A stretch of DNA of 64,000 bases from assembly GCF_009688965.1 (NCBI RefSeq), contig NZ_AP021875.1:1860001-1924000 (forward strand), written 5' to 3'. The translations under genes and the position numbers were made by a program. Shown here in pieces: positions 43,161 to 51,202 of the stretch. How positions within the stretch are numbered: position 1 is the first letter of the stretch; every line of letters starts with the position of its first letter. The notes beneath the pieces are model-generated. The model was given only the letters and a program-made list of their open reading frames with translations. It was not told the DNA's origin and made no database searches. This DNA is from Desulfosarcina widdelii. GTDB taxonomy: Bacteria; Desulfobacterota; Desulfobacteria; Desulfobacterales; Desulfosarcinaceae.

Positions 43161-45032
43161 CTACGAACTGGTGTACTCGGCTTCTATGCGATAGTTCAGG
43201 CCGTAAACGAGCAGCGGGCCGGAGGCCATGATCAATCGTTCCCGCACCGGCCACAGCTCTCCCACGTTCTCCACGATTCTGCCGATCAGCCGGTCCCGCA
43301 CGGCCTCGATGATCAGGTGGCACGCCTCGGCGCCGTCCGCCCGGCTGCGGTGATTCTTGGCGATGAGCACAACCGTGAAGTTCATGGTGTGCTCGGCCAG
43401 GATTTCTTCCATCTTTCGGTCTTCGAAACTGGCCCCATCGTAAAGCACCCACAATGCCGGCAACCGCTTGGGATTGGTTTTCAATTCGTCGATATCCCCG
43501 GCGAACTGATCGACACCGCCGGCGGCTTCAGAAATGTCACCCAGGGCCGTGATGATATCGTCGATGCTTTCCTGGATCAGGGCGGTCAACTCCATTGGAT
43601 CGACGCCTTTTCCCCTGCCCGGTTCAAACAGATCGATGGGCGCCCAGCCTTTCAGGTATTTGCTGCGCTCCTGGGGCCGGCGGGCATATTCGTCCATCCA
43701 GTTGGCCACCATGCAATGGGCCATTTCCATTGTCAGGCACTTGCCACCCACCACTTTTTCGTAAACCTTGCGGTGGAGTTTTTCGCCGCGCATCAATCGC
43801 GGCGGCTTGTTGGCGATAGAGGTGCCGGTGTAGGTGGGCGCGTCGCGCTCCATTTCTGCCATAACGCCGAAAAAACGCTCCACGGTTTTGGATTGGCCGT
43901 GATACGCCCATGCAAATATGGTCTGGATGCCCAAATTGCTGTAGATGCCGGAAAGACCGGCCTGTTCGAGATCGGTATCGAGGCCGGTGCCCTGGAAGTA
44001 CTTGGATTTAAAGGCTTTGCCATTATCCAGATAGACCACGCGCGGGATCTTGCCCAGCATGAGGATCGCCCGGCGCAGCGCGACCGAAATGGCGACGGTG
44101 TTTTCCGTGGGGGCGATCTCCCAGCCGCAGGGCATGTTGGACCGCATGTCAAAAAACGTGATCAACTGCATCCGCTCGATCTTGCCGGTCCACGGATTCA
44201 GGATCTGGAAGTTGAGTTTATGGCCGTCGGCCACCAGGATGTCGCCCACGTTGATCAGTTCCGGATTGCGCTCGATGGAGTAGCAACAATTGTCGTTCCA
44301 GTATTTCTTGCCATGGCGCTGAAAACACCAGATGTCATAATTGTGGGCCTTGAAATCCATCAGCCAGCGCCGGTAGGTGTCCGGGCTGTGACCGTTGTCG
44401 ATTCCCAGTTCGGCCATGCGATTCTTGGCTTTGCGGATGATTTCGGAAATCAAACGCTTGTTGGGATGCAGGGCGATCTGGAGGATGACGGTGGCCTGCT
44501 GGGCGGTGACGATGGATTTGCCGCGCCGCCACCGGCCCCGGCGGTCGGAAAGATCGCCGCCGGCCCGAATGGTGCGCTTCCAGCCCTCGATGGTTTTCCA
44601 GGAGACCGGTCCGACGATGGCGTGGATCTCCTCGAAGATCAGTCCGGAATTGTATGCCAGGATAAAATTGTCACGGGCCACGGCCTTGTTGCCATGACCG
44701 GCGGCGGCCAGGGTGCGGGTGTATTGCAAAAGCAGGTCGGTCTTGGCACTGAATACGGCTTTTTGCTTCTCGGTCATCGCCGGTACCGGCGTTTTCTCCG
44801 GTGCGGCCATCGGAAGGCGGTTCGTGGATGCCGCCGGCAGGTTGCAAACCAGTTCCCTATTATAAAGGAGGCGGATGTCCTCGGGCAGGCTGTCGACGGG
44901 GTAATGCTTGATCTTGCCACCACGGCCGGTTGATAAGTTAAATTTCCAGCCCTCCTTAAGCGCCCGTTTTCTGGCCGCCCTGACGGTCACGCCAAGCAAG
45001 TTTGATATTTCTTTTGCCGTGAGTGCCTGCAT
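43161..45032 (-). CDS. Mu-type transposase fused in frame to a Gp37-like tail protein (deletion fusion)
   Basis: From ATG 45032 (GAGGA site) the product has 623 residues. Residues 1-479 are a MuA-like transposase: N-terminal HTH (ALTAKEISNLLGVTVRAARKRA), and the integrase core with D269 in ILVADGHKLNF, D336 in VVYLDNGKAF and E385 in KTVERFFGVM, so the catalytic triad is intact. At GRGKGVDP, near the start of the transposase C-terminal domain, the text switches to MELTALIQESIDDIITALGDI, then LPALWVLYDGASFED, the pattern of Mu Gp37 (DUF1834). The Gp37 part starts at a Met encoded at 43595-43593. MuB, other early genes and all head genes expected between are missing. A deletion has joined the two genes in frame. 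Confidence 0.85.
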   Translation of the reverse strand: MQALTAKEISNLLGVTVRAARKRALKEGWKFNLSTGRGGKIKHYPVDSLPEDIRLLYNRELVCNLPAASTNRLPMAAPEKTPVPAMTEKQKAVFSAKTDLLLQYTRTLAAAGHGNKAVARDNFILAYNSGLIFEEIHAIVGPVSWKTIEGWKRTIRAGGDLSDRRGRWRRGKSIVTAQQATVILQIALHPNKRLISEIIRKAKNRMAELGIDNGHSPDTYRRWLMDFKAHNYDIWCFQRHGKKYWNDNCCYSIERNPELINVGDILVADGHKLNFQILNPWTGKIERMQLITFFDMRSNMPCGWEIAPTENTVAISVALRRAILMLGKIPRVVYLDNGKAFKSKYFQGTGLDTDLEQAGLSGIYSNLGIQTIFAWAYHGQSKTVERFFGVMAEMERDAPTYTGTSIANKPPRLMRGEKLHRKVYEKVVGGKCLTMEMAHCMVANWMDEYARRPQERSKYLKGWAPIDLFEPGRGKGVDPMELTALIQESIDDIITALGDISEAAGGVDQFAGDIDELKTNPKRLPALWVLYDGASFEDRKMEEILAEHTMNFTVVLIAKNHRSRADGAEACHLIIEAVRDRLIGRIVENVGELWPVRERLIMASGPLLVYGLNYRIEAEYTSS

Positions 45033-45034
45033 GA

Positions 45035-45679
45035 TCAATCCTCGATAAAACGCCTCAACCGTTCGATGAACTCGATCACCTTTTTACGGTCGATCCCCTT
45101 GAAATTGTTTTTCTTGGCGGTAAAGAGTTTTTCCGTGATCGTCAGGAATGCTTCTACAAAGTCCTCGGGCAGTTCGCGTGCGGCCTGGGTGATTTTCGTT
45201 CCGGTCCGTTGGAGGGTGACACCCAATTTTTCGTTGACCAATTTCTTGACATGGGCGCCGGTGGGTTTTCCTTTCGGGGAGGTTTGGACGGCACGCTGCC
45301 AAACCTCGATCTGTTCTTCCGGTCCGGAAAGCTTCGCCATCGACCGGATCTGGCGTTCGTTTGATGGCAGGCAAAGAAACGGGCTGATATCCGAACCGGA
45401 AGGTGGATTTTGTAACCCATGGGTGACATTCTCGAACACATTGGCGGCATCGATCAATCGATAGGCGGTCTGCCTGGATATCCCGAACTTGGATTCCACA
45501 TAGACCTCAAAGGTCGGATGGGTTTTGCGATAATATTTTTCCCCATGGATTTCCCGCAGTGCGAGGCCGCTGTCGAAGGGGCCTTTCATGCCTTCGAAAA
45601 CGACCCTCTCAAGTTCCTCCAGACGGTTTTGTTCTTGCTCCGTCAATGGATCGACCACTTCAACTTCGCTGTTTCCCAT
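45035..45679 (-). CDS. Phage early DNA-binding protein (ParB/DUF3102-like)
   Basis: From the ATG at 45679 (AAAGGTGGT site) the protein has 214 residues. The segment FDSGLALREIHGEKYYRKTHPTFEVYVESKFGISRQTAYRLIDAANVFENV is a pattern I know from phage-encoded ParB-like or DUF3102-like proteins, with an HTH in SRQTAYRLIDAA. LPSNERQIRSMAKLSGPEEQIEVWQRAV is its usual continuation. It probably binds DNA. The C-terminus is basic. Its stop overlaps the transposase start region, so the two are coupled. Confidence 0.7.
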   Translation of the reverse strand: MGNSEVEVVDPLTEQEQNRLEELERVVFEGMKGPFDSGLALREIHGEKYYRKTHPTFEVYVESKFGISRQTAYRLIDAANVFENVTHGLQNPPSGSDISPFLCLPSNERQIRSMAKLSGPEEQIEVWQRAVQTSPKGKPTGAHVKKLVNEKLGVTLQRTGTKITQAARELPEDFVEAFLTITEKLFTAKKNNFKGIDRKKVIEFIERLRRFIED

Positions 45680-46153: not shown

Positions 46154-46654
46154 CTAAAGCTCCGATTCGATTCTGCGGACAATCCGATTTTTCTCCTTGA
46201 TGTCCATTTTTGCCTTGGCCCATGAGAGCAATTTTTGTTCACGGTCGTCGACGATTCGAAGCCCCAACGGACGCGCCAGCGTCTCGATTACCGAACACCT
46301 CTCAACGGCGGCACAAAAAACGGGCAGCGCCTTCAAAGGGATGCTCCGGTTAAGTTCATTGGGATTGAGCCATTTTTCGAAGGTTTCGACGGTCAGGCGT
46401 TTGCAATTGCCACTGACCAGGCATACGCCGAAGCGTGCGGCCAAGTCGTTCATACGGTCCACGATCTGCTCTCGGGATAATCCGCATTCGCGGACATCGG
46501 TGTTCATGACCTGTTTGATCGGGCGGATCACATTCAGGGTGGGTTGGTCGAAGAGACCGAGTTGGATGGTGATGGGCTTGTTCATCTTGTCCGCCGATTC
46601 GATCCAGGTTGTCCGTTTTTTACGAAGACTCGGACATTGACATTCCGGGCTCAT
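46154..46654 (-). CDS. Phage early-region protein, unknown
   Basis: The 166-codon frame ends one base before the next start. The real start may be the ATG at 46585 (MNKPITIQLGLF). The text contains GLSREQIVDRMNDLAARFG and LPVFCAAVERCSVIETLARPLG. Its position as first gene of the leftward early operon, directly next to the operator region, suggests a regulatory or replication role; no family is recognised. Confidence 0.6.
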   Translation of the reverse strand: MSPECQCPSLRKKRTTWIESADKMNKPITIQLGLFDQPTLNVIRPIKQVMNTDVRECGLSREQIVDRMNDLAARFGVCLVSGNCKRLTVETFEKWLNPNELNRSIPLKALPVFCAAVERCSVIETLARPLGLRIVDDREQKLLSWAKAKMDIKEKNRIVRRIESEL

Positions 46655-46689
46655 CTAAATTAGAGTAAGACCGTCGCTAACTTGTATAG

Positions 46690-46742
46690 CACTAAAAATA
46701 GTTATAGGCCCTATTTTTCGGTATGTCAACCCGATTTTTAGG
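46690..46742. promoter_or_regulatory. Operator array between repressor and early genes
   Basis: Three near-palindromic 13-mers lie in the divergent gap: CACTAAAAATAGT (46690), CCCTATTTTTCGG (46709) and CCCGATTTTTAGG (46730), spaced 19 and 21 bp, about two helical turns. A fourth, CCCTAAAAATAGG, lies inside the repressor gene at 46941-46953. They are good candidates for repressor binding sites controlling both directions. Confidence 0.65.
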
Positions 46743-46810
46743 TTCCTGCTAATTTTTCCAGCTCTTCCGACCTGTACCAATTACAACTTAATGGAATATT
46801 TGAAGAAAAA

Positions 46811-47404
46811 ATGACAGTTCCTACTTCGAAAACCGGTTCCCACTTTAGTTCCGACTTTCATAAAGAAAGTGGGAACCCAGATTTCGGAAAAAGACTGACC
46901 TCAAAAAGAAAGCTTATAGGGTTGAGTCAGGATGCATTAGCCCTAAAAATAGGAACAAGTAAAAGCACTGTACAAAGGTATGAAAAAGGAGAGCTTCCAA
47001 AAGGCGACAAGCTTTTAGCATTATCTTTTACCCTTGATTGCTCATTAGATTGGCTACTTAAAGGCGAGGGAGGCCCAAGCGAGCCATTTATTGATGATGA
47101 AAAGGCACCTACCAACAACATCCACGACTCGCAAAATTTTCACATTATTCAGGAATTCGAAGATCAAGAATTCGCGCTGGAGATCAACCAGGCCCTCATG
47201 GTCATGGAAAAAACCTCCTTAAAGGAGTTTTACAAGCTGGGAGGGTATATCAAGGCCCTGTCGGGAAGCGGGATCGAGATACGTACTGATTATAGCGGTT
47301 CCCAGAATAAGCAATATGATTCCGATGTCTGGGATGGCACCGAACGCAGATCGGGGAAAGATCGTCGCAAAACAGTAGGTAAAACTGACGTCAACCCGGA
47401 ATAA
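46811..47404 (+). CDS. XRE-family phage repressor
   Basis: The 197 residues have an HTH at about 28-70 (GKRLTSKRKLIGLSQDALALKIGTSKSTVQRYEKGELPKGDKLL) followed by LDCSLDWLLKGEGGP, a sequence common in phage CI-like and Mu-type repressors. The C-terminal half is helical, with WDGTERRSGKDRRKT near the end, a basic motif found in several regulators. There is no S24 peptidase domain, so it is not a LexA-type self-cleaving repressor. It is divergent from the leftward early genes with operator-like sites between. Confidence 0.8.
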   Translation: MTVPTSKTGSHFSSDFHKESGNPDFGKRLTSKRKLIGLSQDALALKIGTSKSTVQRYEKGELPKGDKLLALSFTLDCSLDWLLKGEGGPSEPFIDDEKAPTNNIHDSQNFHIIQEFEDQEFALEINQALMVMEKTSLKEFYKLGGYIKALSGSGIEIRTDYSGSQNKQYDSDVWDGTERRSGKDRRKTVGKTDVNPE

Positions 47405-47892
47405 TAATACTCTGCCAGGATAGGTAATCTAAAATAGTGCTCAATTATCATTGCTCTCCTTAAATAAACCTTGGTTCAGTAAAAATCCGGAATACTGTTT
47501 AAATTTCTGGCTGAACCTGTTTTTGTTTTGAAATCTCGAAAGGGTAACGATTTGCCCTAAAATTGGCTCATTTTTTAGCGAAAAGTTGGTTCCGGGTAAT
47601 TCTTTTCAAACGCAGTATAGTTTTCTCTCCAACTATTTAATTCAAAATATTATTTATTTGATTCCGGACACAGATTGCTGGTTCCGGTTATAGTCACGAG
47701 CACAGATGGAAATGCCTGGAACCGGCGCGAAATCAATAAAAGGTTTTCTGAAGCGATCTATCACTTTTGGCATAGGATAGTTACAATTGGGAAGGCTGTT
47801 TTTCGATATTTGTGTTGTTACCGAACTCAATTGGTAAAAATCATGATCTTATGAGTGAATTCCAGCAAAACTATAGAGGGAAGGCCTTCAAT
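47405..47892. other. AT-rich intergenic stretch
   Basis: I see no gene or clear structure here. GGTTCCGG-like words recur (near 47592, 47683 and 47717), and the stretch probably holds the promoter of the following pair. Confidence 0.5.
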
Positions 47893-48915
47893 ATGAAAAT
47901 CACACATATTTTCAGTTTTCTTGTCCGCCCGGAAAAAGGTCAGGAAGTGCAATCTGAAGTTGGAGGGACATCAATACCGCTCGAGGGCAATCTGTATTAT
48001 ATGCTATTGACTATATTTGAACGAGCAACTGAGGATTGTAAAATAGATATAACTTTTTTGCCAAGTGGGGATGGAATTCAATTCAACCAGCGTAGGTCCG
48101 AAATACTTGATGTAATCAAACATCGAGACATTAAGCATGCACAGCTCCTTGCAAAACACCTTCAGTCAGTAACGACAAAAAGATCAAAATTAGGATTGTT
48201 TTTTATCGTTCTTGGAAGAGATGGGGGGACAGAACGAATTTACTTGTCAAGGTTCCCTGCAGATTTTGGTATCGTTGCTGAAGAAACGCAGAACGAGTTA
48301 CATGTCGAGTTGATTGAGCAAGTTTTTATGAAAAGCGAAAAAAGCTATAAAGCCGTTGTTTTTGACGGCACAAATGCAGACTCTGATTTTTGGATAGGGA
48401 AAGCGATCGACAAACAAGTCAACGACAATTCTGTTTCTATCTCAGGGTATTGGATAAAGGAATTCCTGAAAGCTGATTTTCGCACCACTTCAGCTGCAGG
48501 GACTCGCAGGTTAGCAAAAGCAATTATGGAAACCATCAATCAGACGAACGATCTTGAAATTAAAGAAGAACTCACATCCGCGGCAAGACTTTCAAGATCA
48601 TTGGCTAATAAGATAATCAGCATGGATAACTTTGCTGATAAATTTGGACTTTCCGAAAAAACTAAGAATGCGCTAATATCAACACTTCGAAACAGGAATC
48701 TTCGTTTTGATCAATTTAAGTTTTCTACCAGTGAATTTAGGAAACATGTCAGATTCCGATCTCTTCAAATCAGCAACGGTGCGATTTTAACCGCTCCATT
48801 AAACAGTTTCGATCAATGCTTTACAAAGCAATGTATTGCTGATGATAGCGACGAATATTTATTTAGCACGCAAGGTACCATTGTCGATGATCGCTTAAGA
48901 GCTAAAAAATCATGA
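47893..48915 (+). CDS. Partner protein of the alarmone-synthetase-like gene; unknown family
   Basis: I prefer the ATG at 47893 (GGGAAGG site), giving 340 residues; the frame opens at a TTG further upstream. The body contains LEGNLYYMLLTIFERATEDC, KHAQLLAKHLQSVTTKRSKLGLFFIVLG, GGTERIYLSRFPADFGIVAE and SYKAVVFDG. The middle recalls nucleoid-associated NdpA/NA37 proteins, but weakly. There is no signal or membrane segment. The stop overlaps the next ATG (ATGA), so the two proteins are translationally coupled. Base composition is AT-rich. It may be an antitoxin, sensor or effector partner of the next protein. Confidence 0.65.
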   Translation: MKITHIFSFLVRPEKGQEVQSEVGGTSIPLEGNLYYMLLTIFERATEDCKIDITFLPSGDGIQFNQRRSEILDVIKHRDIKHAQLLAKHLQSVTTKRSKLGLFFIVLGRDGGTERIYLSRFPADFGIVAEETQNELHVELIEQVFMKSEKSYKAVVFDGTNADSDFWIGKAIDKQVNDNSVSISGYWIKEFLKADFRTTSAAGTRRLAKAIMETINQTNDLEIKEELTSAARLSRSLANKIISMDNFADKFGLSEKTKNALISTLRNRNLRFDQFKFSTSEFRKHVRFRSLQISNGAILTAPLNSFDQCFTKQCIADDSDEYLFSTQGTIVDDRLRAKKS

Positions 48916-49520
48916 AGAGCTTACTGGAGTTATATACAAATCGATATAATAATATATTAGTCCCCGCCGCCAAAGGTATAAAAGGACTTCTAATTGATTA
49001 TTTTGAGGACTTTGAAAGAATTGACCGAATTTCAGCTAGAGCAAAATCTATAGATAGGTTTATGCAAAAAGCTCAAAATGAAATTAACGGGAAACCGAAA
49101 TACTCAGATCCATTGAATCAAATTCAAGATCAAATTGGTGCACGCATTGTTACATTCTATAAAAAGGATGTTGATCGTGTAAGCGAAGTAGTACTTAAAT
49201 ATTTCAGACATATAGAACTAACCTCAATTGTGCCTGATTCTGATGCCGAATTTGGATATTTCGGCAAACACTTTATTTTGATAATTCCTCCAGATGTGTC
49301 TGAAGCGGAAGTTTCCGGTTGCCCAAAATTCTTTGAATTACAGGTAAAGACTCTATTTCAACACTCTTGGAGCGAAGCGAATCACGACCTCGGTTACAAA
49401 CCGAATTCAGATTTATCTTCGGAGATCAAAAGGAAGATCGCATTTACATCAGCTCAAGCATGGGGCGCAGACGAAATTTTCAACGATCTTTTTTTAAGAA
49501 TGAACCATATAGAGAGCTGA
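48912..49520 (+). CDS. RelA/SpoT-type (p)ppGpp synthetase-domain protein, possible toxSAS
   Basis: The 202 residues are a stand-alone RelA_SpoT synthetase domain: RAKSIDRFMQKAQ with R43/K45 for ATP, DQIGARIV with D73 and R78 of the catalytic core, a G-loop-like GYFGKHFILIIPP, ELQVKTLFQHSWSEANHDLGYK with E142, Q144, K146/T147 and H158-D159. No hydrolase domain is present. Small alarmone synthetases make pppGpp/ppGpp or, as toxSAS toxins (FaRel, PhRel, CapRel), make ppApp or pyrophosphorylate tRNA. Its coupling to an unknown partner inside a prophage suggests a toxin-antitoxin or anti-phage unit. Confidence 0.82.
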   Translation: MKSLLELYTNRYNNILVPAAKGIKGLLIDYFEDFERIDRISARAKSIDRFMQKAQNEINGKPKYSDPLNQIQDQIGARIVTFYKKDVDRVSEVVLKYFRHIELTSIVPDSDAEFGYFGKHFILIIPPDVSEAEVSGCPKFFELQVKTLFQHSWSEANHDLGYKPNSDLSSEIKRKIAFTSAQAWGADEIFNDLFLRMNHIES

Positions 49521-49755
49521 TTCTCGCGCCGCCGTATCAAACAATCTTTGGAAGCGATCCCAAAAATCAACCCAAAACTAAATCGTGCGAAAACGGGTCG
49601 GACCGCGCTAACCGACAGGAATTTAATTAGTAACGCTTAAAAATCACGCAATTTTTAGCCTTAAACGGCCCTTTTAATGCCAGCGCATAGATCTACCATG
49701 ATAGTTTTACTTTAATATTTTAGAGCCATAAATAGGCATATTGGAGGTGACTTAA

Positions 49756-50025
49756 ATGGGAAATTTAACAGTAGGTGAATTAAAAAAGAGACTCTCAGTT
49801 TACAAAGATTCTGCCAAGATATCGTTTGCCGGAGGATTGACTTTCTATCAATTGAAGACTTGGTCAGACAACGAACTCTTTGTTGAATTCAACGAACCAG
49901 AAGGTTATCTTTCAGACGAGTTTAGAAAGCGAAATCCTGGCGTCAAGGTTGTATTTATTGATCCCACCGGGGCAAACTGTAGCGCGTCTGGAATTATAGG
50001 TGATGTAGACGTTAGTGTAAGGTAA
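49756..50025 (+). CDS. Small hypothetical protein (prophage A cargo)
   Basis: The 89-residue protein has a good GGAGGTGACTTAA start site. It begins MGNLTVGELKKRLSVYKDSAKISFAGG, with a beta-rich middle and DPTGANCSASGIIGDVDVSVR at the end. I do not recognise it. It is AT-rich and on the same strand as the alarmone-synthetase pair, 235 bp downstream. Confidence 0.55.
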   Translation: MGNLTVGELKKRLSVYKDSAKISFAGGLTFYQLKTWSDNELFVEFNEPEGYLSDEFRKRNPGVKVVFIDPTGANCSASGIIGDVDVSVR

Positions 50026-50160
50026 TTAGTTATTGAGGCAGATTAACAGAAATGGGGCCATGCTAAGACCCACCGCCGAAGGATGTTAACAAGATGTCTA
50101 TATAATATTCCCATGCAGCACGTAAAATGGACGTCTATTGATTATCAATTTTAGAGAATC

Positions 50161-50706
50161 ATGGAAGAAGAAATGTACCCTGGCTTCGAATTACACTTTG
50201 AAATGACAATGAGATCATTCCTGGGAAATAAGGCGGATCATATTGCCGGTCAGGCGTATAGTCCTCAGGTTCGAAAAAAGTGGTATCGAAAAGCACTCCT
50301 AAAAGCCCAGAAGCAGATAATGTCTATTGATACATCCACATCCCATCGGGAGCAACTTAATACATGGTGTGAAGCGGCTTTAAAGGTCTTAGGAGAACGT
50401 AAATTAGATGAATATAAACTACTAATTTATTTGTTTCGTCTAATAAGTGCACTATTGGGATTTCGTGGTTTGAAAGGGGTAACTCTATATTCAGCATTTT
50501 TTTGGCAAAACAAAGGACAGTATTATACTGAGCAGCTTAATTCCGTTGCTGACCCAATGATTGATTATTATGATATTGAAAATTCCGTTTCTATAAGAAA
50601 AGAGCTCGTTAAAGAGCTAAAAGAGCGAGGCTTATCGGATTTTAAAATCGCACAAGTGTTGAACACAACGGAGTATCAAGTAAAAAAAATGAAAAATAAT
50701 CTCTAA
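50161..50706 (+). CDS. Hypothetical helical protein with C-terminal HTH-like segment
   Basis: The 181 residues are mainly helical. A central segment LLIYLFRLISALLGFRGLKGVT is hydrophobic but probably not membrane-spanning. The end, LVKELKERGLSDFKIAQVLNTTEYQVKKMKNN, reads as an HTH (recognition helix near TTEYQVKKMK). It is the gene nearest to the left end of prophage A. Function unknown. Confidence 0.55.
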   Translation: MEEEMYPGFELHFEMTMRSFLGNKADHIAGQAYSPQVRKKWYRKALLKAQKQIMSIDTSTSHREQLNTWCEAALKVLGERKLDEYKLLIYLFRLISALLGFRGLKGVTLYSAFFWQNKGQYYTEQLNSVADPMIDYYDIENSVSIRKELVKELKERGLSDFKIAQVLNTTEYQVKKMKNNL

Positions 50707-50823
50707 CCTCGCCACGCACATGGCCTCGCAGTGGCGGGCCTCCTTGGCTTTGGCATAGTTTGGTCTTTAACTATTTTTTGCGGAGTCCGGAAACCCTGCT
50801 CGCATTGGTGGCGTTGTCCAAAT

Positions 50824-51041
50824 TTCTGAGATAGTGTGCAAATATCGCAAAATATTTTGCGTTTTCAGGTCATTTTTCTGATTTTTAAAATTCGTCGAAA
50901 ATCCGCTCCATACCCGCTTGTCAAAACATCACCACCACGCCAAAAACACCGACATTAAAGCATATCCATCCGAACCAGAATCCCATTGAATCCCGCCAAA
51001 TCCCGTCAAATCCCGCCTATTCGTTTTGCTTAGATAGTGTG
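50824..51041 (-). repeat. Putative transposase-binding sites, left end of prophage A
   Basis: TTCTGAGATAGTGTG (50824-50838) and TGCTTAGATAGTGTG (51027-51041) are the end motif in the opposite orientation to those at 26753 and 51067. The 203-bp interval also holds TCCC-centred 10-bp tandem repeats (50978-51020). The arrangement of outer and inner sites recalls L1 and L2/L3 of Mu. No gene is visible in 50707-51202. Confidence 0.6.
50978..51020. repeat. 10-bp tandem repeat (helical period)
   Basis: Four consecutive 10-mers of the type AAATCCCGCC (TCCC at 50981, 50991, 51001, 51011) follow one another exactly. A 10-bp period places each repeat on the same face of the helix, which could bend DNA or bind a protein array between the inner and outer left-end sites. 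Confidence 0.65.
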
Positions 51042-51066
51042 CGTGCGGTAAATGGATATAAATTTC

Positions 51067-51103
51067 CACGCTAAATCAGAATTATTCCCACGCTATCTCA
51101 GAA
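51067..51103 (+). repeat. Putative transposase-binding sites, right end of prophage B
   Basis: CACGCTAAATCAGAA (51067-51081) and CACGCTATCTCAGAA (51089-51103) repeat the end motif at 22-bp spacing, as at 26753/26775. TAAATTT precedes the first copy in both places. Only 25 bp separate this pair from the inverted copy at 51027-51041, so two element ends meet here. Confidence 0.65.
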
Positions 51104-51202
51104 AAATACGGGCCTGCAAATACTGAACGCAAAAAACCTGTGCGAATCGTAATAAACGGATCGCCAGGCTGATTTAGCCGAGTTTTTGAGCTGAAATCCT
51201 CC

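Follow-up and report, generated by a model that had tools for sequence, protein, structure and literature searches.

A YejK/NA37-related protein paired with a RelA/SpoT-type synthetase behind the repressor of a Mu-like prophage in Desulfosarcina widdelii: a candidate phage immunity module

In the genome of Desulfosarcina widdelii a Mu-like prophage carries, directly behind its repressor gene, two overlapping genes whose products are a divergent relative of the nucleoid-associated NA37/YejK family (gene A) and a lone synthetase domain of the RelA/SpoT type (gene B). The same pair was found at 24 loci, comprising alphaproteobacterial plasmids and chromosomes, Klebsiella, a gonococcal prophage, Desulfobacterota and viral contigs, and the recurrence of the pair with the same overlap at so many loci far exceeds chance. 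We lean, if only just, towards reading the two genes as a prophage immunity module resembling the toxSAS modules, in which A would restrain B until infection and B would then stop growth. The features are compiled in Table 1; the window is the whole stretch of 64,000 nucleotides that was analysed, and all positions refer to it unless they belong to another locus or to the host genome.

Table 1. Positions of the gene pair and of the prophage features around it in the window
Feature	Position	Strand	Remarks
Gene A	47893..48915	+	340 aa; divergent NA37/YejK relative; proposed partner or sensor of B
Gene B	48912..49520	+	202 aa; lone RelA/SpoT-type synthetase domain; proposed growth-arresting effector
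ATGA, start of B overlapping the stop of A (translational coupling)	48912..48915	+	RTGA in 23 of 24 loci
Likely ribosome-binding site of A, GAGGGAAGG	47876..47884	+	Read from the sequence; ATG at 47893
Catalytic core of B	49038..49337	+	R43 (49038), K45, K53, D73 (49128), Y116 (49257), H120, E142 (49335)
CI/DicA-like phage repressor	46811..47404	+	197 aa; directly upstream of the pair; defines the cargo slot
Divergently transcribed phage regulator, phrog_2345	46154..46654	-	Left-end marker of the Mu-like phage family; four copies in the host genome
Low-GC insert containing the pair	46500..51200	.	About 37-43% GC, flanked by DNA of about 55-60% and 49% GC

Both open reading frames and their overlap are present where the first-pass annotation had placed them. 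For gene A a GTG at 47812 is an alternative start and would extend the protein to 367 aa. Since the homologues begin at the position of the ATG we retained the latter as start codon.

It had been argued in the first-pass annotation that the two genes should be conserved together if they form a unit, and a search for conserved gene pairs had been suggested. This expectation was borne out, as B lies directly downstream of A at every one of the 24 loci and no A without B was found among them. At the single locus lacking the RTGA junction the overlap is longer. There are two subfamilies of A, which are only 14-20% identical to each other in this protein. The distances between the A proteins and those between the B proteins correlate with r 0.98 (0 of 2000 permutations as high), which is expected of linked and co-inherited genes.

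By tblastn A was recovered from six plasmid records of Rhizobium/Agrobacterium (35-38% identity, with most or all of the protein covered); scanning GTDB contigs contributed ten alphaproteobacteria and IMG/VR two further viral contigs. A genome of the host genus (G009) contains a far more distant A of the second subfamily (24% identity, E 5.6e-6) followed by a longer RelA gene of 327 aa. The subfamily II pair is also present on a conjugative plasmid of Klebsiella and on an Ochrobactrum plasmid, where the genes are annotated as 'nucleoid-associated protein' and 'RelA/SpoT domain-containing protein', as well as in viral contigs and in one Neisseria gonorrhoeae record with a phage-like setting. 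In this gonococcal record (L034:5019-7065) a repressor-like HTH gene precedes A and B, and B is split into two overlapping open reading frames and is therefore probably inactive there. The pair is rare: of 385 genomes sampled from the Rhizobium class only one contains it, and that one was the centre of the search itself. Its distribution over conjugative plasmids and viral contigs is mobile and patchy.

Protein B matches the Pfam family RelA_SpoT (PF04607) with an E-value of 2.8e-11 and 44.1 bits against a cut-off of 27, and the Pfam search found no hydrolase domain within its 202 aa and no other noteworthy match. Among 18 homologues, with identities as low as 23%, there is no substitution at R43, K45, K53, D73, Y116, H120, E142 or Q144. 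For FaRel2 it has been described that R64, K66 and K74 contact the phosphates and ribose of ATP, that D90 is a magnesium ligand, that Y128 belongs to the acceptor site and that E145 contacts the adenosine (PMC11782079). By motif position R43, K45, K53, D73, Y116 and E142 of B correspond to these six residues in this order. The residues of donor site, magnesium site and acceptor site are hence all invariant, which confirms the previous description of B as a synthetase with a complete set of catalytic residues and no hydrolase domain. As these residues are kept, B should be an active pyrophosphokinase, with GDP/GTP, adenine nucleotides or tRNA as possible acceptors.

A sequence search of the PDB identified YjbM of Bacillus subtilis (E 1.5e-12) and other small (p)ppGpp synthetases as the nearest relatives of B, whereas CapRel matched the B profile far more weakly (E 0.008). 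Judged by these scores B resembles the housekeeping-type synthetases more than CapRel, and for this reason the toxicity of B is something that we infer. In the acceptor loop the motif is GYFGxH or GYEGxH in subfamily I, YQSxH in subfamily II and YRSYH in YjbM. With PADLOC, B and the B protein of subfamily II match the candidate PDC-S33 weakly to moderately; PDC-S33 is an uncharacterised candidate with a single gene model. A solitary homologue of B with 41% identity is encoded in a 174-kb viral contig (L005:4899-5621), and no A was detectable anywhere along this contig; restraint of B by A is therefore not obligatory.

The assignment of protein A is less direct. According to the first-pass annotation it matched no family that could be recognised well, and this still holds for direct searches with A, which returned no Pfam, NCBIfam or PADLOC family and no PDB sequence match; only PHROG families of unknown function were hit, with marginal E-values. 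At the level of remote homology and fold, however, A falls to NA37/YejK. The A protein of subfamily II (G009, locus L002) matches Pfam NA37 (PF04245) above the cut-off, with an E-value of 1.9e-18 over residues 12-317, and in our alignment of 16 A proteins four match NA37, a number equal to that of its subfamily II members. A profile-profile comparison of the two subfamilies with hhalign, in which the subfamily I profile contained no subfamily II sequence, gave E 1.8e-10 and a probability of 96.9 over about 238 columns. The corresponding hhalign comparison of the A subfamily with two canonical NA37 sequences, which are too few, gave no match; the link to NA37 consequently depends on subfamily II and on the fold.

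For the fold we used an AlphaFold2 model of A obtained from 16 sequences of both subfamilies (pLDDT 80.6, pTM 0.64). An initial model from 11 sequences had been too poor (pLDDT 59.7) and was discarded; the improvement followed the addition of subfamily II. When the model was compared with 350,542 PDB chains by Foldseek, the single significant match was YejK of E. coli (9be2, E 2.3e-5). VIA-align gave Z 14.2 over 256 residues for the same structure, the next row reaching Z 5.4. With 9.3 the rmsd is large and the TM score of 0.37 is low, which shows that the domains are arranged differently. In the viral structure library BFVD nothing significant was found. KwaB of the Kiwa system appears in the VIA list at Z 4.4 over 127 residues, a value within the range of unrelated folds and to be taken as a lead only. 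Rows for MHC-like proteins (Z about 4-5) were disregarded because they reflect a common arrangement of sheet and helices. Likewise a match to A in genome G087 (L003, E 3.2e-4) was regarded as a chance hit, since the open reading frame looks ParB-like by eye and has no RelA neighbour. Taken together, the subfamily II intermediate, the profile match and the predicted fold place A, as a divergent relative, with the nucleoid-associated NA37/YejK proteins, and we speak of a relative and not of a member because the window protein itself has no direct Pfam NA37 match.

The pair had previously been described as prophage cargo. The prophage context is correct and can be specified as the slot directly behind the repressor gene of a Mu-like phage. 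To the left of the pair lie a Mu-like transposase gene (43161-45038), phage regulators and the repressor, to the right a Dam methylase and tail/baseplate genes. In the transposase frame (minus strand, 625 aa) residues 3-475 are a Mu-type transposase (PHROG 310) that is truncated and fused to a Mu gp37/tail-terminator domain (about residues 505-616), and this in-frame deletion junction indicates that the left prophage is probably defective. Two further genes on the plus strand of the same low-GC insert, 49756-50025 (89 aa, weak match to phrog_21180) and 50161-50706 (181 aa, no clear family), are possibly separate cargo.

There are four related Mu-like left ends in the host genome, near 885556, 1906157, 1951207 and 6498767, and in the copies other than that in the window the slot behind the repressor is occupied by other genes. 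Compared with the window, the prophage of G009 (L040) has a divergent regulator that is 72% identical, a repressor that is 35% identical and A and B proteins that are 23% and 26% identical; the slot is therefore conserved while the cargo varies, L040 holding a version of the same pair from the other subfamily. Uncharacterised cargo is found in the slots at L060 (a 286-aa protein together with a membrane protein of 257 aa) and at L062 (750 aa, weakly radical SAM), and in the related genome G045 (L063) a Shedu-like SduA gene lies some 3.5 kb beyond the repressor, with a DUF6731 gene downstream of the repressor. The order repressor, A, B is shared by the window, L040, L043 and the gonococcal L034. 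The rexAB genes of phage lambda occupy the same position relative to cI. By this analogy the lysogen probably expresses A and B along with the repressor.

Outside prophages the neighbours of the pair comprise Hachiman HamA/HamB and DNA methyltransferases as well as genes annotated as DarT, TIR and AbiJ-NTD4, a description and not an enrichment statistic. In two other Desulfobacterota (L028:249-2472 and L029:809-3106) a canonical NA37 gene is followed directly by a gene for a protein of about 410 aa with two hydrophobic helices, and relatives of this protein adjoin NA37 genes on plasmids of Methylobacter and Pseudoalteromonas. As in the A-B pair the NA37 gene comes first and the second gene lies directly downstream, but the second product is not a synthetase. 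This may be a second pair of NA37 protein and effector, and the pattern is in keeping with a sensor role of A. RelA/SpoT-domain genes were also seen directly downstream of large proteins without clear family on a Klebsiella plasmid (L021:1890-4873, 704 aa) and a Yersinia plasmid (L025:2319-4819, 532 aa), and these large proteins are perhaps further partner types.

The toxSAS modules, namely FaRel2-ATfaRel2, PhRel-ATphRel of phage Phrann, PanA-PhRel2 and the fused CapRel SJ46, have in common with A-B a synthetase without hydrolase domain, the same donor and acceptor residues, the two-gene unit with a partner and the prophage home. Their antitoxins belong to the PAD1/Panacea, pseudo-zinc-finger-like and hydrolase classes (PMC8832971, PMC10440598, PMC11782079), whereas the partner here is a 340-aa protein of predicted YejK/NA37 fold, and B is more akin to RelQ/YjbM than to CapRel. 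Pfam found no match of A to these antitoxin domains, although a small local neutralising element could escape such a search. The canonical proteins NA37, YejK and NdpA (PF04245; PDB 9be2) are similar to A in predicted fold and, via subfamily II, by full-length remote homology; A differs in that it escapes the Pfam model and in that it occurs, in the loci found, only with B and largely on mobile elements. A system with a YejK domain, predicted by DefensePredictor, has proved its anti-phage activity in E. coli (PMC13092281), and this would support an immunity function of A-B; the main text of that article does not name the partner gene. The literature that we searched, an incomplete selection that includes the texts of PMC8832971 and PMC10440598, contained no report of NA37/YejK combined with a toxSAS or alarmone synthetase. 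Both toxSAS modules and YejK are known, and as far as searched the YejK/NA37-family partner of a toxSAS-like synthetase is what appears to be new here. The suggestion that the pair is a new toxin-antitoxin or phage-sensing unit gains from the co-conservation and is in line with the setting (repressor slot, conjugative plasmids, defence neighbours); A, however, is not the unknown protein that it was taken for.

How such a module might work, that is how A restrains B, how B is toxic and on which substrate, what triggers its release and how this protects against phage, we infer as follows. The Mu-like prophage would carry A and B as a two-gene immunity module. A, translationally coupled to B, would bind B or otherwise keep it inactive. 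As a sensor A may respond to the DNA of the infecting phage, to a change of the nucleoid or its topology, or to a phage protein touching it, and would then release B. Free B would act as an ATP-dependent pyrophosphokinase and stop growth by pyrophosphorylating guanine or adenine nucleotides or the CCA ends of tRNA, and the growth arrest would block the second phage.

This toxSAS-like reading is favoured by the pairing, the gene order, the overlap, the mobile homes and the immunity slot. It is weakened by the scores of YjbM-type synthetases, which lie far above that of CapRel, and by the acidic character of B (pI 6.0), as FaRel2 binds tRNA through a basic patch (PMC11559606); moreover no search relates A to the known antitoxin domains, and the solitary homologue of B also argues against it. 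The closeness of B to the housekeeping synthetases leads to another explanation, in which B is a non-toxic, regulated synthetase of phage or plasmid that modestly raises (p)ppGpp and tunes lysogeny, transfer or host growth, while A modulates B or the DNA. Relatives of YejK do regulate mobile elements, for instance NdpA2 on the ICE PAPI-1, which alone gave no gel shift (PMC8565334). The solitary viral B homologue is compatible with such a role, and extra synthesis could matter in a host whose only further RelA_SpoT protein is a 729-aa open frame that would fit a housekeeping Rel. The patchy distribution, the defence neighbours and the exchange of cargo in the repressor slot suit immunity better, however, and we consider a regulatory synthetase unlikely.

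The direction of signalling might also be reversed, B being an infection-activated maker of a nucleotide signal and A, as a YejK/KwaB-like DNA-associated protein, the effector directed at phage DNA upon alarmone binding. The coupling of two genes suits a signal and the protein that receives it, B is similar to synthetases that use nucleotides, YjbM among them, and the fold of A groups with DNA-associated proteins. KwaB, which binds DNA in the Kiwa defence system (PMC12904381), is in the same fold list, but its score lies within the range of unrelated folds and no membrane partner of the KwaA type was identified for A. A sensor domain could not be recognised in B, nor a nucleotide-binding motif in A, and the antitoxin-first gene order suits a toxin-antitoxin reading; we therefore regard this reversal as unlikely too. 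That A and B are accidental neighbours or a decaying remnant without joint function might be suspected from the adjoining prophage, partly decayed and with its shortened transposase joined to a tail gene, and from the split gonococcal B. The co-conservation, with a single gene order at 24 loci, a nearly constant RTGA junction and an invariant active site, makes this very unlikely.

To sum up, an immunity module with A as the restraint on B seems to us the reading to pursue. As a broader and rather doubtful generalization, proteins of the YejK/NA37 fold may be a general phage-sensing scaffold with exchangeable downstream effectors, an alarmone or tRNA pyrophosphokinase here and a two-helix membrane protein elsewhere, so that the condition of the nucleoid or of incoming DNA would be translated into growth arrest. 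In such a scheme the alarmone might even serve as second messenger to the DNA-associated partner. The slot behind the repressors of Mu-like phages suggests itself as a place to seek further immunity modules. Little is understood about the function of YejK/NA37 proteins, and restraint and triggering of toxSAS-like enzymes are known for few partner types. A conserved and mobile pair of a YejK relative and a synthetase joins both questions in one compact and testable system, and poses the question whether a DNA-associated protein may sense infection and release a growth-stopping pyrophosphokinase.
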